DNA from: a virus
Length of the DNA stretch: 53,663 bases
Strand: one strand, 5' to 3'
Virus record (IMG/VR): IMGVR_UViG_3300023178_000063
Span: 1-53,663 of that record
The position numbers and the translations under genes are program-made. Below are positions 26,061 to 53,663 of the stretch, one piece after another (within the stretch, counting starts at the first letter, position 1; every line of letters starts with the position of its first letter). The notes under the pieces are model-generated. The model saw nothing but the letters and a program-made list of their open reading frames with translations, ran no database searches and had not been told where the DNA came from.

Positions 26061-26732
26061 TTATAATTTGCCAAAACCCCAAATTCTTTCTTTACAAAAC
26101 CAACATTCGCCGCAGTTTCCGTTAGTATAATGTAGAGTATTACAACTTACAGTTAATGGAAATAATGTATCTAAAAGATTGTGCTGTTTGTACAATTCTG
26201 CAATTTGTTTTTTATTTAAATTAAAAAATGGTCGTATTTCGCCAAATTCAATAAGCTCACCGTCATGTACAATAACAGCAGAAAAGATTAGTAATTTATC
26301 GGCTTCTTCAGATCGAGTTCGATCTAAGTCGTCATGTTTTGGCCAAGCATTATTGTAGGCTTCAAAATCAGGAGTTTGATTAATTCCAGTATAGATATAT
26401 TTGTATTTTCCTTTTAAGATGTTCTCTTCGTTAACTTTTTGAAAACTTGTATCGTACGTTGATGCATCAGTTTCATATATAATAGGGTCATTAAATATAT
26501 CATTGCAGTCAAGCTCTTTTTTTATAAAATTTATAACGTCTAAATGACAAGTATCAGTAGAACGTTTTGGAATACTTACTGGTTGTAGTTTAAATGGGAG
26601 ATTATTTGATTTTATTTTTTTAGCAAGTAGGTAGCATAATAAACTACTATCTACGCCGCCGGAAATCCAAATACCTAAAGTATTATTTTTATTACTTAAT
26701 AGTTGTCCATTGGGTATTAGTAGTTCTATCAT
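26061..26732 (-). CDS. QueC-like PP-loop ATPase
   Basis: A 223-residue member of the adenine-nucleotide alpha-hydrolase (PP-loop) family. SGGVDSS at residues 24-30 is the ATP pyrophosphatase motif. The C-terminus has CNTLHY..NGNCGECWFCKER, a cysteine cluster like the zinc site of QueC, which makes 7-cyano-7-deazaguanine. No companion QueD, QueE or transglycosylase gene is seen in the window, so the pathway is uncertain: tRNA or DNA base modification, or a thiolation or amidation reaction, are all possible. It follows the MazG-like gene by 36 bases. Confidence 0.75.
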   Translation of the reverse strand: MIELLIPNGQLLSNKNNTLGIWISGGVDSSLLCYLLAKKIKSNNLPFKLQPVSIPKRSTDTCHLDVINFIKKELDCNDIFNDPIIYETDASTYDTSFQKVNEENILKGKYKYIYTGINQTPDFEAYNNAWPKHDDLDRTRSEEADKLLIFSAVIVHDGELIEFGEIRPFFNLNKKQIAELYKQHNLLDTLFPLTVSCNTLHYTNGNCGECWFCKERIWGFGKL

Positions 26733-44584: not shown

Positions 44585-44872
44585 ATGTTCATTCGAGAAT
44601 ACACATTAAAAAAGATATACGAACGTCTTAGTAAATTAGGTAAACTGCACAAGTATTACCGTGATGTTACTATGATTGTATTACGATGTGATAATTGTGA
44701 TGTTGAATTTGAAAGATCACGGGGTAGTATGGATCCTAAACGTCTAAACAATAACTATTTTCATGTGTGCAAAAATTGTGATGCAAAGGTATTTGCACAA
44801 AAAAAAGGAGTAGAACGCAAACAAGTATGGAATTTGTCTGCAAGTTCTGACATCCCTATTAGTAAACTTTAG
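44585..44872 (+). CDS. Small zinc-ribbon protein
   Basis: The ATG at 44585 gives 95 residues; a longer frame to 44498 would run into the divergent promoter region. Two CxxC pairs (RCDNCDVEF and HVCKNCDAK) form a zinc ribbon. The N-terminus is basic and helical (REYTLKKIYERLSKLGK). This shape is seen in small DNA- or RNA-binding phage proteins and in HNH-like proteins, but the catalytic histidine pair of an HNH nuclease is not evident. The stop overlaps the stop of the convergent IscA-like gene by four bases. Confidence 0.75.
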   Translation: MFIREYTLKKIYERLSKLGKLHKYYRDVTMIVLRCDNCDVEFERSRGSMDPKRLNNNYFHVCKNCDAKVFAQKKGVERKQVWNLSASSDIPISKL

Positions 44873-45219
44873 ATTTGTAAATTATCTGCAAAATTAACAC
44901 TAACTCCGCAGCCGCATGAACTTTGTGCGTTTGGATTTTGTATTTCAAACATAGACCCAAGAATATCTTTTTTGTAATTGATAGTTGATCCTATCATAAA
45001 CATAATACTATGAGGGCCTATAACAAAACTATTTCCTTCTGGGGTAGGAATAATTTCGCTTCCTTCTTCAATATTGTCAGGATTGCTAATCGTGCTCCAG
45101 TCATATTCAAACCCAGCACAACCGCCGCCCTTCATATTCAACGCAACACCGATAACATTATTTTCTTTACAAATATTATCGATTTGAGACGTAGCAGTCT
45201 CAGTTAAGGTAACAACCAT
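44869..45219 (-). CDS. A-type iron-sulfur carrier (IscA/ErpA-like)
   Basis: A 116-residue HesB/IscA-family protein. The ligand cysteines are in GGCAGFEY and SSCGCGVS, the normal three-cysteine set, and MVVTLTETATSQI is a typical N-terminus. It would carry Fe-S or iron to target proteins during infection; a seven-iron ferredoxin and two radical SAM enzymes in the same window are possible clients (inference). It follows a 55-residue membrane-protein gene directly. Length is normal. Confidence 0.93.
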   Translation of the reverse strand: MVVTLTETATSQIDNICKENNVIGVALNMKGGGCAGFEYDWSTISNPDNIEEGSEIIPTPEGNSFVIGPHSIMFMIGSTINYKKDILGSMFEIQNPNAQSSCGCGVSVNFADNLQI

Positions 45220-45426: not shown

Positions 45427-46017
45427 ATGCAAGAAAATAATCTTAAATCGTATCCAATATTTGTATCAAATTTACTTGGTTCTACATTTAGCAATCACCA
45501 AGAGCTCAAACAGTCTATGGTAGAGTTAGTTCATAACGCTAAAGAGCATGACTATACCAATCGAAAAGGGTTTATTACAACAAGTGATTTACAACACCAC
45601 CCAGTTTTTGAACCTTTAATACAAACAATTACAAACCTAAGCAACGAGATTAAAAAATCTTGGGAGTTAGATGAAAGTATTAAATTAGGAATACAGCAAA
45701 TGTACGGTGCAGTAGCAGAACCAGGCGGCACAACAATTTCACATGAAGTTCCTTATACATTTTTACATGGAATGTATTTTTTAAATACACCGCCAGATGC
45801 AGGAAATTTGATTATCACACACCCCGCCGATAGGGTAGACTTTTATGCTAATCTCAAATTCAAAACGCCAAATTTAGATAACACTTTTAGATTTGAAACA
45901 CCTATGCCTGAAGGAGATATTATTTTTCTCCCAGGCTATTTAAAAAATCATACATCTTTTAACGACAGCAACGAAAACAGAATAGTCATTAATTTTAGTA
46001 TCAAGGCGTTAAAATGA
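45427..46017 (+). CDS. Putative 2-oxoglutarate/Fe(II)-type oxygenase
   Basis: A 196-residue protein resembling the TIGR02466-type family. The strand TTISHEVPYTFLHGMYFLNT, then GDIIFLPGYLKNHTSF and RIVINFS, give the order of a double-stranded beta-helix with a distal His and a substrate Arg. The first metal ligand pair is H-E-V, not the usual HxD, so metal binding is uncertain. No ribosome site is visible before the ATG. It is coupled by ATGA to the next gene. It may modify a small molecule or a protein; unassigned. Confidence 0.65.
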   Translation: MQENNLKSYPIFVSNLLGSTFSNHQELKQSMVELVHNAKEHDYTNRKGFITTSDLQHHPVFEPLIQTITNLSNEIKKSWELDESIKLGIQQMYGAVAEPGGTTISHEVPYTFLHGMYFLNTPPDAGNLIITHPADRVDFYANLKFKTPNLDNTFRFETPMPEGDIIFLPGYLKNHTSFNDSNENRIVINFSIKALK

Positions 46018-46361
46018 TATTAGAAAAAGTTACAAGTATATACATTGAAGATTTGGATATTAAAGAAGATCTATCTAAATTACTTTCTCCATATTTTAAT
46101 ATTATAGACACAAAAGAAGACAGTCATTTTTTAGTTACTAAAACATTTGATAATCAATATCAAGGGATTCAACTTGTATTAGACGAATCAAATGTGTTTA
46201 AAGAATCAAGTCATAACACAATTTTTGTACAGCCGTTTTTAAACGGTAAAGAAGGACAAGTAGAAGATATTCCTTTATCTATTAGAAACTTTATATGGAA
46301 TATATCAAATGTATTAGATTACCCAATTAAGACTGATAAAAGAATTTTAGTACTTTGTTAA
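46014..46361 (+). CDS. Hypothetical protein coupled to the oxygenase gene
   Basis: A 115-residue acidic alpha/beta protein. It starts in an ATGA overlap with the upstream oxygenase gene, so they are likely co-translated. No motif is recognised. The 3' end overlaps the convergent glycosyltransferase-like gene by 35 bases, which would make antisense ends of both transcripts complementary. Confidence 0.65.
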   Translation: MILEKVTSIYIEDLDIKEDLSKLLSPYFNIIDTKEDSHFLVTKTFDNQYQGIQLVLDESNVFKESSHNTIFVQPFLNGKEGQVEDIPLSIRNFIWNISNVLDYPIKTDKRILVLC

Positions 46362-47553
46362 CAAGAACACTACACATGTAGTTTTGATTTAGTTTTTGAT
46401 ATGTTTCTCTGTTGTGTTCAAGTATAGGCAACAATTCTAAATAGGTATTATAATGCCAAGAGTAATTTTTATTTGCTAAAAAATCAATTTGTTTCTTTAT
46501 TTCAGCCATACGTTCATGGTGATCTTCAATACTATCGTAGCTTTCATCAATTACAGATTCAAATGTAATAAACCCAAGCTCCCTTAGAGATTTTAATGTA
46601 TGTGGTAGTCCTACAACAATAAATGGATGATAGTAAAATAATGCCTTTAATACTTTTTCAGTAAATCCTAAATACTCATTGCTGTAAAAGTCTCTTTCTC
46701 CAATAATGCTCCAATAGGTTTTTTGAAACATCTCCGATGGATTAGGCATATGTTGCTGAAAGTTAAGATCTGTATTATCCTCCATGTCAATTTTTAATGG
46801 TAGTGATTTTTCTAACCTTTGTAAACTTTCTTTTGACAAAGTTTTATACAACATATTATCATCAAAAATATTATTAGTCTTGTAAAAATCTTTAACACTA
46901 TCTTCAACTTCGCTTGGAGATGATTGCAGTATCTCAAATTCATATTTGTTACAACTTGCTAAAGTATGATTGATATATCCGTTTTCTAATAAATGATCAA
47001 TAATTTGAAAACGATGATATCGAGCTTGCCTATTTAAAGTTAAAAAGATTTTAGGTCTTGGATAAAGATAAGGTTCAGTTTGATCATTCTGCACATCAAT
47101 GTTATCAAAGTTTTTATATGTAAGATGAAAGTTAAAATAATATGTTTGTTTGCCTTTTAATGCTTGATTACTCGAGTATATCAAATATTGAATATTATTT
47201 TCTTCAGCCCACTCTGAAATTTCATCAGACTGTTTTTGTGTTAGTAACCCTTCATACGTATCATCTACAATTACAAAAGTATCCTTAGACGCAATACTTT
47301 TTACAGTATCAAACTTTTTAAAATTGTTACCTATAAATTCAAAAAATAACACATATCGATCAGCATCGTAAGAAGTATCTTGATAAAAATTAACAACTTT
47401 TTTTAGGTCAGTATATTTTATAGAGTCTAACAATCTATTAGTTGGTGTTATACTTCTATAAGGTACCTCGAGAGAAGTTCTGGATGTATTCCTTGTTCGG
47501 GTAGGTAAATCCGTCAATCCTCGATAGATATTTTTGTATTTCTTGTCTGTCAT
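46327..47553 (-). CDS. Glycosyltransferase-like protein, last gene of the seven-gene operon
   Basis: A 408-residue protein. The C-terminal region (EKVLKALFYYHPFIVVG...LRELGFITFESVIDESYD) is characteristic of a glycosyltransferase-like family found in marine bacteria and phages, with the acceptor/donor site near the Glu of EKVL. The N-terminal 150 residues are not recognised. The start used overlaps the radical SAM gene by 98 bases and shows no ribosome site; a later TTG is possible. The substrate is unknown; sugar transfer to DNA, a small molecule or cell-surface glycan would all fit. Confidence 0.7.
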   Translation of the reverse strand: MTDKKYKNIYRGLTDLPTRTRNTSRTSLEVPYRSITPTNRLLDSIKYTDLKKVVNFYQDTSYDADRYVLFFEFIGNNFKKFDTVKSIASKDTFVIVDDTYEGLLTQKQSDEISEWAEENNIQYLIYSSNQALKGKQTYYFNFHLTYKNFDNIDVQNDQTEPYLYPRPKIFLTLNRQARYHRFQIIDHLLENGYINHTLASCNKYEFEILQSSPSEVEDSVKDFYKTNNIFDDNMLYKTLSKESLQRLEKSLPLKIDMEDNTDLNFQQHMPNPSEMFQKTYWSIIGERDFYSNEYLGFTEKVLKALFYYHPFIVVGLPHTLKSLRELGFITFESVIDESYDSIEDHHERMAEIKKQIDFLANKNYSWHYNTYLELLPILEHNRETYQKLNQNYMCSVLVNKVLKFFYQS

Positions 47554-48394
47554 GTTTTGTAAATCTTAATGATTCGGGATAAGTTAGTACATTTATATAC
47601 CATTTATTGTCATAGTTTTTCATAAACTTGATAAGATCGTGTAGATGAAATATATTATTGTAATGTAAAACAGTATTAAATTCAAATTCATAATTGTTTA
47701 TTTTACAATAGTCAATAAAATTAAGTGTATCTTGCCAAACACTGCCGCCTCTAACTTTTTCATTGACAGCACCAACGCCATCAATGCTAATAATAAATTT
47801 AACTTGTTTAAAGTTATTCCAAACTTGGTTACAATCTTCAGTAGGAAGATATGTAGCATTAGTATTATAAATTACAACACAGTTTTGCGGACAGGGATGT
47901 AAATTTAATACATCTAAATGCCTATTTAAAATTAAAGGTTCGCCACCTAAGAATAAAATTTTATTTACACTTGATGGTATAGTTGTAATTTCGTCAACAA
48001 CTAATTTTTTATGACTTGCCTTTCCGTATATTAATTCTTCTTTGGCAATCCAACTTGTACTAAATTCTGAATTGCATCCATCGCAAGTAAGATTGCAAAG
48101 ATTATCTAAGCCAATTTCAAGATATTTGAGTTCAACTGAGTTTGTATTGTATTTCTCATTAAACTCTTGACGTAGACTTTTATGTTGAATTGATTCTTCG
48201 TAGTAACATTTTTCACAACCTTGTATATGCTCTCCAGCAAGGCTTTTTTCACGTAATTCTTTATATGCTTCTGAGTGTAATACGTTTTCTATATCGCCAT
48301 TAAAGGTATCAATAGAATGTTTAAAACGACAACACGGATATACTCTGTTTCCAGGCCTAATGTTAGTGTGATTCCAAAATGCACTACACTTCAT
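47456..48394 (-). CDS. Radical SAM enzyme 1
   Basis: A 312-residue radical SAM protein. The cluster motif is CNLTCDGC (CxxxCxxC) at about residue 95. A preceding N-terminal region (MKCSAFWNHTNIRPG...YPCCRF, CEKCYYE) holds five more cysteines, suggesting an auxiliary Fe-S site of the SPASM/twitch kind placed N-terminally. LFLGGEPL is the SAM-binding GGE. It overlaps the second radical SAM gene by 11 bases and has AAGG before the ATG. Such proteins modify peptides, nucleotides or small molecules; the substrate is not shown. Confidence 0.88.
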   Translation of the reverse strand: MKCSAFWNHTNIRPGNRVYPCCRFKHSIDTFNGDIENVLHSEAYKELREKSLAGEHIQGCEKCYYEESIQHKSLRQEFNEKYNTNSVELKYLEIGLDNLCNLTCDGCNSEFSTSWIAKEELIYGKASHKKLVVDEITTIPSSVNKILFLGGEPLILNRHLDVLNLHPCPQNCVVIYNTNATYLPTEDCNQVWNNFKQVKFIISIDGVGAVNEKVRGGSVWQDTLNFIDYCKINNYEFEFNTVLHYNNIFHLHDLIKFMKNYDNKWYINVLTYPESLRFTKHDRQEIQKYLSRIDGFTYPNKEYIQNFSRGTL

Positions 48395-49253
48395 GTATCT
48401 TACCTTTTAGAATAGCATCTTCTTGTGGTTTTAAGTTTGGATTTGCAGGACACATCTCACAAATAGGATGTGGATGAAATATATTATTAATAAACCCATT
48501 CAATTCATACTCGGAGCAGTTAACATCTAAACCTTCGTATTTTAAATACGGTTCCCAATCCTTGTCATCTAACATATTATATTTTTCAGCATGAGTTCTT
48601 AACATACTAATTGGCGGACATTTATATAGTTTATTTTTGTATATAATAGGATAGATGTTTGCACTACAGTTGTGGTAACTTGATTCAGCATCTCTGTCAT
48701 TCCACGGTTTTAGCACACCATTTAAGTTTTGTCTGTAATCATACCATCCTCCTTGAGTAGGGTCAGATACTTCTAATTCTACATCTTGGTATCTCCATAT
48801 ATGGTTTTCTTCTTCTACCCAAGGAAGATCTTTTATAATATACTTTCGAATATTATCTTCAATTTTTTGTCTAATTGCTGTATCTCTATTATGCAATGTA
48901 ATACTAATTTTAGCAGGCTGGTTTTCTAACAGAATATCTAAAAGTTTATCACGTTTAGGCAAGAAAAATCCATTAGAATAAATTTCTATTCTTGCATGAT
49001 CAAAACAGTGCCTACTGTGTTTTATAATATCGTAAATGCCAGGATGTATTAACGGTTCTCCGCCTATGATTGTAAAGTTGTCTGGATCAAGACGGGATCC
49101 CCATTCAAACATATTTGATTTCAGCTCTTGTAAATCTTCATGCCAGGAATGGTTGTAGTCAATAAAACGGTCACAACCCGGACATGCTAAGTCGCACGAG
49201 GTTGTGACCATCCATTCTAAATAAGGTAAATGAAATCCTCTTGGATCAAGCAA
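48384..49253 (-). CDS. Radical SAM enzyme 2
   Basis: A TTG at 49253, six bases after GAGG, is the best start and gives 289 residues; an ATG at 49310 would overlap the upstream gene by 65 bases. CDLACPGC holds the Fe-S cluster and FTIIGGEPLIHPG the SAM site. C-terminal cysteines (YKCPPIS, CEMCPAN) suggest a further Fe-S cluster. The protein differs from radical SAM 1 in length and cysteine layout, so the two are not recent duplicates. It is coupled to the amidinotransferase and to radical SAM 1. Confidence 0.85.
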   Translation of the reverse strand: MLDPRGFHLPYLEWMVTTSCDLACPGCDRFIDYNHSWHEDLQELKSNMFEWGSRLDPDNFTIIGGEPLIHPGIYDIIKHSRHCFDHARIEIYSNGFFLPKRDKLLDILLENQPAKISITLHNRDTAIRQKIEDNIRKYIIKDLPWVEEENHIWRYQDVELEVSDPTQGGWYDYRQNLNGVLKPWNDRDAESSYHNCSANIYPIIYKNKLYKCPPISMLRTHAEKYNMLDDKDWEPYLKYEGLDVNCSEYELNGFINNIFHPHPICEMCPANPNLKPQEDAILKGKIHEV

Positions 49254-50307
49254 AATAATCCTCGCAGTTACCTTTACGTTTTGTGTCAAGTGTAACACAA
49301 TGAAAGCCACCGCTTAATGTACGTGCTTGACGCATAGGCATGCCAATCGATTCAATGCCGTGCTTGTCTAACTCTTTACGTACATATTCCTGATTTTCAT
49401 CAATAATAACTAATTCTTCGTTTACACTTAACATATTTAAACCAATGTATTTAGAACAAGGTGATACATTACCTTCTAAGTTAGATCCAATGTCAACTAC
49501 CTGATCACCTGGTACAAAGATTTTATCCCAGTCTTTAAAGATTGGTGGATACCAGTCTGGAGTACAGCGATCGCCGTTAAACAACACCAATCCAGGACGT
49601 AGTGGAATAACTGTACTGTCAAAGTGCGAATAGCTATAAAACTTTTCTGCTAAATGAATACGGTAACCACGTGGTTCAAGCAAATTACGTAACCACTTAT
49701 AACCCCATAAATTACCAGAGTTACTTACTTGATAAATTAGATCCTTGCCTAAACGTACTACGTTAGGAGCATCAAAAACAATTTCTTCATTAGTAAGTGT
49801 AGGAATACTTAGGTCGTCAAGTTGATAACTGCTATCTAATAATCTTGGTCTTGGCGCACTTAACCATTCTCCACCATTATCTACTACATCGTATAAAAAA
49901 TCACGATATGCAAGTGTTTCATATTGTCTTGCCCGCATAGCACCCGGACAATCAATAATTAGATTATCTAATGGCAACAGCAAGTCACGTGGACAATATG
50001 TGTACCATCCTGTTGTTTCCCAGTCTGGCGATTTGAATGTTTTACTATGATCAATTGCCTCAGGTCTACGAACTGTTACACCCAGCTTTCTTAATTGATC
50101 TGATAAGTTGTCAAGATCCTCGTTTGCTTCATCAATCACCCATTGCGGTGAAGGTCCTTCAAGATCTTTAATTTGATCGTAGGTACAATCTGCAAACCCA
50201 AAAGAATGCGTACTTGCATCAATAGTAGGAATACGTGCATGATCTGCAACACCTACAAAAATTTCTTCTAATGGATCCCAGTCGTTATGACTACTGACTA
50301 CTGTCAT
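49246..50307 (-). CDS. Arginine:glycine amidinotransferase-like enzyme
   Basis: A 353-residue, full-length member of the AGAT/amidinotransferase fold. The catalytic cysteine is in LSGGFHCVTLD (about residue 337), a His in YSYSHFDSTV and an Asp in DCPGAMRARQYE complete the triad region. Such enzymes move an amidino group from arginine to an amine and give a guanidino compound and ornithine. The acceptor is not known. AGGAG lies just before the ATG. It sits between the PLP enzyme (17-base overlap) and radical SAM 2 (8-base overlap). Confidence 0.93.
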   Translation of the reverse strand: MTVVSSHNDWDPLEEIFVGVADHARIPTIDASTHSFGFADCTYDQIKDLEGPSPQWVIDEANEDLDNLSDQLRKLGVTVRRPEAIDHSKTFKSPDWETTGWYTYCPRDLLLPLDNLIIDCPGAMRARQYETLAYRDFLYDVVDNGGEWLSAPRPRLLDSSYQLDDLSIPTLTNEEIVFDAPNVVRLGKDLIYQVSNSGNLWGYKWLRNLLEPRGYRIHLAEKFYSYSHFDSTVIPLRPGLVLFNGDRCTPDWYPPIFKDWDKIFVPGDQVVDIGSNLEGNVSPCSKYIGLNMLSVNEELVIIDENQEYVRKELDKHGIESIGMPMRQARTLSGGFHCVTLDTKRKGNCEDYFA

Positions 50308-51163
50308 ATATTTTTTCTCCTATTATTTCTGAAACACAAACTCTGTTAACTTTTGTGCCTCTATTATACTCTTTATATTCATCTCCGCCTAACCCAAACA
50401 TAACACAATCTGTGTTTTTTAAGTTGTACTCTTTACACACTTCTTTATAAAGATCACCATATGATAACCAATTATGATCTATGCTATAATTTTTAATTAA
50501 ACTTGATGCTATACTTAACGATATGCGATTGACCATTTCAACAGAATTGATTAAATCTATACCATCATCAGTATCTTCTCTTTCTAATCTTAGTCCAACA
50601 CGTAAAAACTCAGCACCATAAAATGCTTTTGATAATGAAAATGTAACTGTTTGAACACAATTATATTTTGTTAAATCTAACGTAATATTTTTAGTACAAG
50701 GATAATATGCAAAGTCTAATAAGACAGGAATATCCATAGCATTACAATTATGTAACAAAAACTCTAAATGTGTATGTTGCGATCCATAATCTGAAAACGG
50801 TACGCTAATAATTAAAGCATCGTTTGGTTGTAAACGTCTGTCATCAAGGTATGCCCAAACTCCGCCATGCTTAAGAACTGCACTATGATACATAAACTCG
50901 CCGCGAAAGAATCTAAATGTACGATTCTTGTGACGCCAATAAAAATGGTCAAATGTTTGTGCTGTTCCTGCAACTAATCTGTGTATTGGAAACTTATCAA
51001 GTCCTATTAAATTATTCAGCTTACTTGAATTAATCCAGTTATAAAAATCATTAGTAAACTGGTCTTGTATATCATTATTATATAAATCATTAGTAGGATT
51101 CAATCCTACTATAAAATCTTTTACACGATGATCTGCAATAGGTTTAGCGCCTCTTAAATTCAT
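50291..51163 (-). CDS. PLP-dependent aminotransferase-like enzyme (short)
   Basis: A 290-residue protein of PLP fold type I. The Schiff-base lysine is in TFSLSKAFYGAEFLRVGL (about residue 179) and the pyridine-N aspartate in IPVLLDFAYY (about 148). It is shorter than the usual 380-430 residues: the N-terminal arm and part of the C-terminal small domain appear reduced. It could be an aminotransferase, a decarboxylase or a lyase. GGAG precedes the ATG. It overlaps the oxygenase-like gene upstream by 20 bases and the amidinotransferase by 17. Confidence 0.82.
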   Translation of the reverse strand: MNLRGAKPIADHRVKDFIVGLNPTNDLYNNDIQDQFTNDFYNWINSSKLNNLIGLDKFPIHRLVAGTAQTFDHFYWRHKNRTFRFFRGEFMYHSAVLKHGGVWAYLDDRRLQPNDALIISVPFSDYGSQHTHLEFLLHNCNAMDIPVLLDFAYYPCTKNITLDLTKYNCVQTVTFSLSKAFYGAEFLRVGLRLEREDTDDGIDLINSVEMVNRISLSIASSLIKNYSIDHNWLSYGDLYKEVCKEYNLKNTDCVMFGLGGDEYKEYNRGTKVNRVCVSEIIGEKIYDSSQ

Positions 51164-51653
51164 CTAACACTCCAGTCACTTGCATAGTATATTTTTCAGT
51201 CATACCCATGTTTCCGCTAAGATGCGGCTCATTATATTTTATTAGTATAGCATCACCTTGCTTCCAATGCAAGACCGAATTTTGATTTATTTCAAAATAA
51301 TGTCCACTTTGCCAATCTTCTAAAAATATATTAATTCTTACACATTCTGACGGATGAACATCATTAACACTGGCAAATTTAAAAAATGTATCTTCGTGTA
51401 AAGGTAAAGTCTGGCCAGGAGACTGTTTCATTATACCTACTGAATAACGGTCAAATAGAGTACGACAAAAATTATGTATATCATCGCCTACTTCAAATGC
51501 ACGTTCGTATTTTGTGTTATGATGTGTAAAACCTACTTTACGATACATTTCGTTTTGTTTTTCAAACTCACGAGACCTTCCATAAGACGAAACATTATCT
51601 TCAACAATCCAGTTTAAGTCTTTATAATTAAAATTAGGTAATTTTATATTCAT
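51144..51653 (-). CDS. Putative 2-oxoglutarate/Fe(II) oxygenase, cupin-like
   Basis: A 169-residue protein with a double-stranded beta-helix pattern: TLPLHEDTFFKF (H-E-D as HxD), CVRINIFLEDWQSGHYF, WKQGDAILIKYNEPHLSGN (distal His) and KYTMQVTG. This looks like an aspartyl-hydroxylase or cupin-like dioxygenase. It begins in an ATGA overlap with the first gene of the operon. The substrate is unknown. Confidence 0.72.
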   Translation of the reverse strand: MNIKLPNFNYKDLNWIVEDNVSSYGRSREFEKQNEMYRKVGFTHHNTKYERAFEVGDDIHNFCRTLFDRYSVGIMKQSPGQTLPLHEDTFFKFASVNDVHPSECVRINIFLEDWQSGHYFEINQNSVLHWKQGDAILIKYNEPHLSGNMGMTEKYTMQVTGVLDEFKRR

Positions 51654-52405
51654 TTTTCTGTTCTAATATCGTATGGTGCTTTTTCATCTTTATCATACCA
51701 ATATAGACTACGATGAGGTGGGAAGTGATCATCGTGTTTTGCATTACTTACATAATAAAATAGTCTTAAATTTTTGCGACATGTTCCTTCTGGATTTTTC
51801 ATAGGATCAGGATAACCGTGAAATGCTAAATTATGATAACTCCATACAACTAAATTACCTGCTCCTGGAACAACTCTACTAATTCTATCTTCTCGATTTA
51901 TATCATAAAAGTCTAAATTTCCTCCCCAATCTTCGTTCCATTCTTCATTTAAATAAACAATAGCACTAAGACGTCTATGTAATTTTAATTCTTCATTCCA
52001 GTTAAAGTCTGTGTGTATTTTTAAACTATCGCCAGTATATGCTTTTGCATAACCGGCACCAATCAAATGAGGATCAGGAATCAAGTCAATTGTGTCAGTT
52101 ACTTCTTGTAGCCATTTTAAAAACGGGCCGCTGTGTAATGCATTTACAACTTCATCTTGTATTGGTGTTATTTCTAAGTCGTTGTATTCATACATACAAC
52201 TACCTTTACGAGTAAACTTTTTTCCTTGTTCTAACGGTAAAGAATCAAGTTCTTTTGCCATCTCTTGAACAATGTTTAATGGTAAAAAGTTTTTTATTTC
52301 TATTTTACTATAAGATGGATGGCTTCTATATTCTACTTGTAAGTCGTGAGTATTTGAAAAATGTGTTTTTATATGATCTAAAATTTGATTTTTAATTTTA
52401 GGCAA
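51650..52405 (-). CDS. 2-oxoglutarate/Fe(II) dioxygenase (prolyl-4-hydroxylase-like), first gene of the operon
   Basis: A 251-residue dioxygenase with the 2OG-Fe(II) facial triad: H131 and D133 in KIHTDF, and H196 in LAFHGYP, followed by an Arg in CRKNLRLFYY for 2-oxoglutarate. RRLSAIVYLNEEW is the strand after the HxD. A TTG start at 52405 lies seven bases after GGAG and is the only start fitting that ribosome site. A sigma70-type promoter lies 26 bases upstream and probably drives the six genes that follow. Hydroxylation of a small molecule, nucleotide or peptide is expected; the substrate is unknown. Confidence 0.9.
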   Translation of the reverse strand: MPKIKNQILDHIKTHFSNTHDLQVEYRSHPSYSKIEIKNFLPLNIVQEMAKELDSLPLEQGKKFTRKGSCMYEYNDLEITPIQDEVVNALHSGPFLKWLQEVTDTIDLIPDPHLIGAGYAKAYTGDSLKIHTDFNWNEELKLHRRLSAIVYLNEEWNEDWGGNLDFYDINREDRISRVVPGAGNLVVWSYHNLAFHGYPDPMKNPEGTCRKNLRLFYYVSNAKHDDHFPPHRSLYWYDKDEKAPYDIRTEK

Positions 52406-52524: not shown

Positions 52525-52785
52525 ATGATTAAATGGTTAAAATCACTTTTTAGTTTTGAACAACCTTTAGAGCCTACATTACAGGCTGATAAAGAAACGG
52601 CAGAAGCACCTAAAGCAAAGGCGCCTGCTAAGAAAACAACTAAAAAGAAAACAACTAAAAGCAAGTCATGTGACTTTAGCAAGTTAACAAAAACTCAACT
52701 GCTTGCAGAAGCAAAACACCGTGGTGTTAAAGCTAACGCAAGTTTATCAAAAGCTGAGATTTTGAAACGAGTTAAGAACGGTTAA
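52525..52785 (+). CDS. Basic SAP/HeH-like DNA-binding protein
   Basis: An 86-residue protein. Residues 1-20 are a hydrophobic/acidic start, residues 28-48 are an Ala/Lys/Thr-rich linker (KKTTKKKTTKSK), and residues 50-86 (KLTKTQLLAEAKHRGVK...LSKAEILKRV) look like a two-helix SAP/HeH-type DNA-binding motif. The histone-tail-like linker suggests binding to DNA, possibly to condense it. The ribosome site is AGGAGG. The 3' end overlaps the convergent coiled-coil gene by 14 bases. Confidence 0.8.
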   Translation: MIKWLKSLFSFEQPLEPTLQADKETAEAPKAKAPAKKTTKKKTTKSKSCDFSKLTKTQLLAEAKHRGVKANASLSKAEILKRVKNG

Positions 52786-53062
52786 TTACAGCCGCTTGCA
52801 ACTGCTGAATTGCAGTATCTTGGCGAGCCAGCTTACGCTCTAAAACAGTGATAGCGGCTCGCTGTTTTTTTGACTGTTCTTCCAAAGAACGAACATATTG
52901 AAGTGTAGGAAGTTCTTGAGAGCTACCATCCTCGCCAAGCATAGTAATAGTGTCTACACCTTGGGCACGTAACCCACCAGTTACACGATTTGGATTTTTA
53001 TCATTAGTAGACGGTTGTGTGCTCTTGGATCGAGGACCGTACATCTTGTTCAAATAGCTCAT
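52772..53062 (-). CDS. Small coiled-coil protein
   Basis: The ATG at 53062, after AAGGAAG, is preferred to one 12 codons earlier; the product is 96 residues. Residues 1-40 are Gly/Pro/Ser-rich and probably flexible, and residues 50-95 form a coiled coil (LEEQSKKQRAAITVLERKLA). It overlaps the end of the UV-endonuclease gene by 59 bases. It may be a small structural protein. No family is recognised. Confidence 0.7.
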   Translation of the reverse strand: MSYLNKMYGPRSKSTQPSTNDKNPNRVTGGLRAQGVDTITMLGEDGSSQELPTLQYVRSLEEQSKKQRAAITVLERKLARQDTAIQQLQAAVINRS

Positions 53063-53663
53063 AATCTTCCTTTGCTTTCTTATATTTATACAAGTCAATG
53101 CTTGCTAAATTCTTACACTTAGACTCTACCATAATGTCTGCATAGTCGTTAAACTCTAATGCCCAATCGTTGACAGCATTGTTCCACATCATATCCGAGT
53201 GAGCACGTAGTTTCTGTTTCTTAAATCCATTCATAAGCAAGAACTCCATATCAGGTAGTTCGTTGTCGGGCCATTCTGCAAGTAAATCTTCTTTGCTTAC
53301 ACTGTAATGTATAACAGGACGCACACCGCGCCACGATTCAATTACGCGATCAAATCTACGGTCGGTTGGTAGAATGTATTCTCCTGTACGCACCCAGTGA
53401 TGGTGTATGTCAAGAACGAGGGCAACGTGTTTTTCAAGTTCGAGGCTTGCGTCGAGTCCCCACGACATTTCGTCGTTTTCGATCGTGATGGTGTTTCTTG
53501 CTTCGGGCGATAGTCTTGGTAGGACGTCGATGATGCCTTGTGGACCTTTTCGACCCGATATGTGTACATTGCATTTAAAGTCTTGAAATGTCTGTCCGTA
53601 TCCCATCCAGCGTATGACATCCACATGATACTCAAACTCCTCTATACTTCTATTTACTATATC
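53004..53663 (-). CDS. uvsE: UV-damage endonuclease (UvdE-like), cut by window edge
   Basis: A TIM-barrel UV-damage endonuclease that nicks DNA next to photoproducts. The frame is open to the right edge, so the N-terminus is missing; a GTG at 53624 is not a likely start because the coding continues without a stop beyond it. Signature segments are TIENDEMSWG (metal Glu), LVLDIHHHWV (metal Asp/His) and PVIHYSVSKE, and ADIMVESKCKN near the end. At least 219 residues are visible. It would repair sunlight damage to the phage genome, as in other surface-ocean phages. Confidence 0.92.
   Translation of the reverse strand, partial: DIVNRSIEEFEYHVDVIRWMGYGQTFQDFKCNVHISGRKGPQGIIDVLPRLSPEARNTITIENDEMSWGLDASLELEKHVALVLDIHHHWVRTGEYILPTDRRFDRVIESWRGVRPVIHYSVSKEDLLAEWPDNELPDMEFLLMNGFKKQKLRAHSDMMWNNAVNDWALEFNDYADIMVESKCKNLASIDLYKYKKAKEDYELFEQDVRSSIQEHTTVY

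Follow-up and report, generated by a model that had tools for sequence, protein, structure and literature searches.

The host-recognition cluster of pelagimyophages and cyanomyophages is, in the available part of its published description, a hypervariable island of tail fibres, glycosyltransferases, nucleotide-sugar genes and radical S-adenosylmethionine (SAM) cassettes, which its authors proposed to alter the host surface against coinfection (PMC7029224). The viral DNA analyzed here (IMG/VR record IMGVR_UViG_3300023178_000063, positions 1 to 53,663; this whole stretch of 53,663 nucleotides is referred to as the window) resembles that island in combining a tail-fibre-like neighbour with glycosyltransferase-like and radical SAM genes. 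These genes belong to a seven-gene operon, which encodes as one unit two 2-oxoglutarate (2OG) oxygenases (OxyA and OxyB, with a third, OxyC, nearby), a pyridoxal-phosphate enzyme (PLP), an amidinotransferase (AMT), two radical SAM enzymes (rS1 and rS2) and a glycosyltransferase-like protein (GTx). In contrast, an OxyB-PLP-AMT core and guanidine chemistry are not among the features of the island given in the same part of its description (PMC7029224). The product of the operon is very probably a building block with a guanidine group, which becomes attached to a sugar chain or to some other structure.

Among cultured phages, the most similar arrangement is that of Synechococcus phage S-SCSM2R, in which AMT directly follows an OxyB homologue and is accompanied by a radical SAM gene and several glycosyltransferases. 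However, its AMT is 40% identical and belongs to a separate second clade, and its PLP-type neighbour is a DegT-like fragment of another family. Pelagibacter phage Mosig EXVC030M (MT647606), a cultured SAR11 phage, has an island of modification type close to its tail fibres (locus L249, 48933–69613, about 20 kb). A distant homologue of PLP (25%) lies there together with a carbamoyltransferase, aminotransferases (ArnB-like and others), Asp/Arg hydroxylases and three radical SAM genes of the MoaA-like kind, but no amidinotransferase is annotated in the island. The enzyme combination of the window was not found in the literature searched, including that on amidinotransferases with phages, in agreement with a preliminary description of this DNA, which knew of no such phage pathway; radical SAM cassettes beside glycosyltransferases are known from host-recognition islands of pelagimyophages (PMC7029224).

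Gene arrangement and enzyme assignments

The seven genes lie on the minus strand between 52405 and 46327 in the order OxyA, OxyB, PLP, AMT, rS1, rS2 and GTx, and every junction is overlapping (Table 1). The coordinates of the open reading frames confirm the overlaps reported previously, which are 4, 20, 17, 8, 11 and 98 bases in gene order. With TTG 49253 as the start of rS1, its overlap with AMT comprises 8 bases, against 65 with the first GTG; the TTG is closely preceded by GAGGA, a good ribosome-binding sequence, and many relatives also start near this position. The sigma70-type promoter proposed earlier (TTGACT-17-TG-TATTAT, 52459–52431) is suitably placed for the start of the operon, but the pattern itself is uninformative, since a scan found 43 sites with 41.9 expected.

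Table 1. Genes of the operon and of its surroundings in the window.
Gene	Description	Coordinates	Strand	Basis
OxyA	2OG-Fe(II) oxygenase, 251 aa, TTG start, first gene of the operon	51650..52405	-	PF13640 and invariant residues
OxyB	Cupin-like 2OG oxygenase, 169 aa, virus-specific family, core	51144..51653	-	HxD...H triad
PLP	Short fold-type I PLP enzyme, HisC/CobD-like, 290 aa, core	50291..51163	-	AlphaFold, Foldseek, invariant residues
AMT	StrB1-type pentein amidinotransferase, 353 aa, core	49246..50307	-	1bwd match, catalytic residues
rS1	Radical SAM enzyme, 289 aa from TTG 49253 (likelier start) or 308 aa from first GTG	48384..49310	-	PF04055
rS2	Radical SAM enzyme, N-terminal SPASM/twitch domain, 312 aa	47456..48394	-	NF033640
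GTx	GT-B fold glycosyltransferase-like protein, 408 aa	46327..47553	-	AlphaFold and Foldseek
OxyC	Third 2OG oxygenase, TIGR02466-like, convergent with the operon	45427..46017	+	PF13759 3e-8
Fe-S carrier	A-type iron-sulfur (Fe-S) carrier (SufA/IscA/ErpA-like)	44869..45219	-	PF01521 4e-12
Fibre gene	Giant tail-fibre-like gene adjoining the cluster, 2888 aa	35838..44504	-	Partial tblastn matches

Each enzyme class named in the preliminary description is borne out by a predicted fold or a catalytic motif, tentatively so for the glycosyltransferase-like protein. AMT aligns with the StrB1 structure 1bwd over residues 2–351 (E 1e-94), and in 17 aligned viral forms Asp179 is nearly invariant and His228 and Cys337 are invariant. 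By homology and this Asp-His-Cys triad, AMT is unambiguously predicted to be a StrB1-type pentein amidinotransferase. Enzymes of the StrB1/AGAT family move the amidino group of arginine to an amine, yielding a guanidine and ornithine. AMT shares with StrB1 (L-arginine:inosamine-phosphate amidinotransferase of streptomycin biosynthesis) full-length homology, the three catalytic residues and the absence of a methionine at the flap position before the catalytic histidine. The viral enzymes nevertheless form a clade of their own, apart from the 61 bacterial rows of the AMT tree (bacterial StrB1-type enzymes are 40–47% identical), with their own flap, which reads FYSYSHF in the window and FY(S/A)(F/Y)(S/A)HF as a viral consensus. 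This flap is unlike LYAST of the Streptomyces StrB1-type enzymes and unlike those of characterised AGAT (DPNPM), CyrA (DIFPS) and AmtA (DMHPM) (PMC4887976).

Two known pathways were considered for AMT and rejected. A streptomycin-type aminoglycoside pathway would involve aminocyclitol genes (DegT aminotransferase, inositol enzymes), which are absent from the operon; family scans of the window detected no streptomycin aminotransferase or inositol genes, and a StrG-like fusion occurs only in relatives. Creatine-type metabolism does not fit an AMT that is StrB1-like, has a flap without Met302 of AGAT and is accompanied by no guanidinoacetate methyltransferase (GAMT) among the annotated genes; the viral GAMT interpreted as creatine-type metabolism in a marine survey is a different gene (PMC11360552). 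A Streptomyces griseus homologue of AMT (locus L092) has the active-site motif GGGFHG, lacks the catalytic cysteine and is perhaps the StrB2 paralogue.

The assignments of OxyB, PLP and GTx are based on motifs and models. OxyB had no family match and no convincing Protein Data Bank (PDB) match in a sequence profile search; His86, Asp88 and His144 are invariant in 25 divergent relatives and form an HxD...H triad, by which OxyB is a predicted 2OG oxygenase. PLP, likewise without a Pfam match, is modeled by AlphaFold as a compact fold-type I enzyme with a predicted local distance difference test score (pLDDT) of 92.5, and its best Foldseek matches are HisC (E 1e-11) and Thr-P decarboxylase, with template modeling (TM) scores of 0.6–0.7. 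The predicted cofactor residues Lys179 (Schiff base), Asp150 (pyridine nitrogen) and Arg188 (phosphate) are invariant, and the C-terminal Arg274 is nearly so. In its modeled fold and in these lysine, aspartate and arginine residues, PLP is a fold-type I enzyme.

The remaining enzymes were identified as follows. OxyA matches the Pfam family 2OG-FeII_Oxy_3 (8e-14), and its HxD, His and Arg residues are invariant in 46 aligned rows. rS1 matches Radical_SAM (4.5e-9), with the CX3CX2C motif and four further cysteines invariant in 46 rows, and rS2 matches the N_Twi_rSAM family with 205 bits against a cut-off of 170, its CX3CX2C motif being invariant in 51 rows. GTx has no Pfam match and no convincing PDB match by sequence profile. 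In Foldseek its AlphaFold model (pLDDT 85) is most similar to EXT1/EXT2 (exostosins), an alpha-1,3-fucosyltransferase and OtsA, which are all of the GT-B fold, and by this comparison GTx is a putative GT-B glycosyltransferase-like protein. It contains a motif E...TEK...PF..G, which we take to resemble that of GT10 fucosyltransferases, and is homologous to two other glycosyltransferase-like families found in relatives.

Conservation and inheritance of the cassette

A search with AMT identified at least 212 viral loci, and one with a PLP profile identified 311. The counts below are of contigs, some of which are related to each other; many records are fragments, and counts of absence therefore leave presence as a lower bound. 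In the 35 close loci with 4 kb on either side, OxyA, OxyB and PLP are present in 35, rS1 in 32, and rS2 and GTx in 31 each. OxyC, which was missed by the preliminary description, lies within 6 kb in 31 of these 35 loci. When AMT was collapsed at 90% identity and a flank of at least 2.5 kb was required, 29 lineages remained, which contain PLP (28), OxyB (27), a glycosyltransferase of the GTx superfamily (21), rS2 (18), rS1 (12) and OxyA (7); 16 of them combine PLP and OxyB with both a radical SAM gene and such a glycosyltransferase. On the basis of these counts, OxyB-PLP-AMT, which is virus-specific, is the core, and OxyA, rS1, GTx and rS2 form a variable coat around it. The earlier suggestion that the same set should be sought in other phages was thus answered by a set that recurs rather than by genes scattered singly.

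Distances measured for the partner genes are correlated with AMT distances (Mantel r 0.56–0.85; none of 500 permutations as high). Together with the presence counts, this correlation shows joint inheritance and movement, as expected from the earlier proposal of inheritance as a unit. Nonsynonymous divergence (dN) is far below synonymous divergence (dS) for all seven genes against relatives, with dS near saturation and the ratio to be read qualitatively only; this pattern indicates that all seven genes are under purifying selection. Its conservation across many phages, together with this low dN relative to dS in every gene, shows that the set is not a chance assembly. Its setting varies from tail fibres to recombination or single-stranded DNA-binding-like genes and to GTP cyclohydrolase I (GCH1)/QueE-type genes. 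Since the surroundings differ in this way among relatives, the set travels as a cassette.

A comparison with 50,697 phage records gave no match for the window PLP or for GTx, one weak match (Mosig) for a divergent PLP query and a single match (S-SCSM2R) for OxyB. Uncultured phages have the core of the cassette by the score, whereas it is hardly seen in cultured ones. At the bacterial AMT loci examined, no relative of PLP or OxyB is found alongside, except in a contig of 3736 bases from a Synechococcus lacustris assembly (locus L083) with the order PLP-AMT-OxyB-OxyB. This contig is also the sole "bacterial" row within the viral AMT clade and is probably phage DNA within a cyanobacterial assembly.

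The cassette is thereby defined as conserved, movable and viral, with a predictable chemical signature, a guanidine derived from arginine. It is present in hundreds of phage contigs and almost nowhere in cultured phages, and routine annotation would label AMT a "glycine amidinotransferase", which would be misread as host metabolism. The role of radical SAM and 2OG genes, which are numerous in marine phages, becomes directly testable here, as three genes are enough for a test of the core reaction.

Predicted product of the cassette

The operon would represent a tailoring cassette complete in itself, carried by a large myovirus of marine type. PLP would form or remodel an amine, AMT would convert this amine to a guanidine, OxyB would hydroxylate the substrate or product, and rS1 and rS2 could change the carbon skeleton or the sugar. 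A glycan, most likely on virion fibres or the host surface, would then receive the guanidino-bearing unit from the GT-B protein, and this decoration could alter adsorption or exclude competing phages. Such a guanidino-bearing glycan is favoured because of the tail-fibre position and of the neighbours in relatives: among 80 PLP loci, nucleotide-sugar dehydratase/epimerase genes lie in or beside the cluster in 35 and nucleotide-sugar dehydrogenase genes in 16, and a StrG/LIC12192-like "sporadic carbohydrate cluster" fusion lies near AMT in 15; a carbamoyltransferase is present in 7 of the 35 close relatives, and many glycosyltransferases occur in the clusters of relatives. Several observations weigh against this reading. 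No nucleotide-sugar gene lies inside the window operon, the viral AMT flap matches none of the characterised acceptor types compared, so that a sugar acceptor is only predicted, and the fold match of GTx is modest (best E 9e-4, TM 0.36–0.42). PLP occurs without AMT in 11 loci, mostly alongside OxyB or OxyA, and OCD and PALP are the commonest families beside bacterial StrB1-type genes, which implies that the AMT family can also serve amino acids. A guanidino-bearing glycan on fibres or host surface is accordingly a tentative choice, credible but somewhat short of probable. A wider proposal, in which uncultured aquatic phages remodel their own or the host surface with a new guanidino sugar or amino acid made by a virus-specific guanidinylation pathway without a known cellular counterpart, is possible and more speculative.

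The earlier interpretation as a biosynthetic cluster for a small molecule or a modification is partly supported. Of the three products it envisaged (a modified DNA nucleotide, a guanidino metabolite or a modified peptide), a guanidino product is predicted most safely, and the context in relatives favours linkage to a glycan over a free metabolite. The strongest rival is a non-protein guanidino amino acid, made by PLP and AMT from a diamine or diamino acid, hydroxylated by the 2OG oxygenases and then released or attached. The PLP model is nearest to HisC, the CobD-type Thr-P decarboxylase and other amino-acid enzymes, Arg274 is conserved as for binding of an alpha-carboxylate, and the OCD and PALP enzymes beside bacterial StrB1-like enzymes suggest a guanidino-amino-acid pathway from diaminopropionate in those bacteria. 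About 13 relatives (loci L181, L193, L201, L230 and others) have in their clusters a gene for a PF00501-like AMP-ligase of about 490 aa, often next to a partner gene of 80–90 aa, and many relatives carry oxygenases of the Asp/Arg-hydroxylase type. On the other hand, the glycosyltransferase superfamily found in 21 of the 29 lineages would be needless for a free amino acid, and family scans detected no transporter, nonribosomal peptide synthetase or ligase in the window operon, which leaves this alternative unlikely.

The two other rivals are less probable still. In one of them, the radical SAM and 2OG enzymes would modify a virion protein or ribosomal peptide, whose side-chain amines would be amidinated. 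This would agree with the SPASM-type domain of rS2, a class rich in peptide maturases, with a weak match of OxyA to the peptide oxygenase YhhC and with the adjoining fibre genes, which are Cys/Gly-rich in some relatives. Such a modification is improbable: the YhhC match is far below the cut-off (25.8 against 150 bits), characterised enzymes of the StrB1/AGAT family act on small molecules, and the overlapping operon, to which the search was confined, has no gap for a precursor-like small open reading frame. Hypermodification of a DNA base, such as a guanidinylated 7-deazaguanine or thymine, is the least supported of the products envisaged earlier and is very doubtful. The window encodes a QueC-like protein (26061–26732, minus strand) and the near-identical record L002 encodes QueD (6-pyruvoyl-tetrahydropterin synthase, 2113–2562), from which the window phage may have part of the preQ0 pathway. 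In about 20 other relatives (for example L177, L183–L185, L188, L189, L197, L199 and L241), the order rS2-OxyB-PLP-AMT is closely followed by a phosphoribosyltransferase, GCH1 and a QueE-like radical SAM gene. In Campylobacter phages, among which some contain 7-deazaguanine in their DNA, AMT has a distant homologue (25% identity). Yet a preQ0 set together with a TGT/DpdA-type transferase was not found among 48 related records, in which QueD was detected in 7, QueC above the cut-off in 1 and the TGT family PF01702 in none (14 of 14 controls were positive, though a divergent DpdA could escape detection); six cassette contigs of 80–110 kb also lack QueD. A 7-deazaguanine link was therefore rejected as not consistent with these searches. 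For thymine, the window encodes an ordinary thymidylate synthase that matches ThyA over its full length, and the 5-hydroxymethyldeoxyuridine kinase family PF18723 was found in none of 38 records, although its controls also gave no match.

Flanking genes and further observations

In tblastn, the giant tail-fibre-like gene is matched in part by annotated tail fibre proteins of Mosig and of cyanophages. Another virion-region gene of the window is closest to cyanophages, and the clamp loader is closest to PA5oct-type large Pseudomonas phages (55%). The family of the A-type Fe-S carrier is present in 7 loci and is a conserved neighbour only in the nearest subgroup; it is a possible supplier of Fe-S clusters for the radical SAM enzymes.

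Several relatives also encode a tryptophan halogenase. In bacteria, loci L100, L115, L125 and L133 (Halieaceae, Hyphomicrobiaceae and others) have gene pairs immediately upstream of the StrB1-type amidinotransferase. StrB1-like amidinotransferases of Pseudomonas (L095, L102, L109, L110, L114 and L120) are followed about 700 bases downstream by a carbamoyltransferase, like the pairing in some phage clusters. On its promoter side, the operon is flanked by a gene for a small, Lys-rich protein whose C-terminus is SAP-like (52525–52785, plus strand) and by one for a UvdE-type UV endonuclease (53004–53624, minus strand), both of which are conserved in the nearest subgroup.

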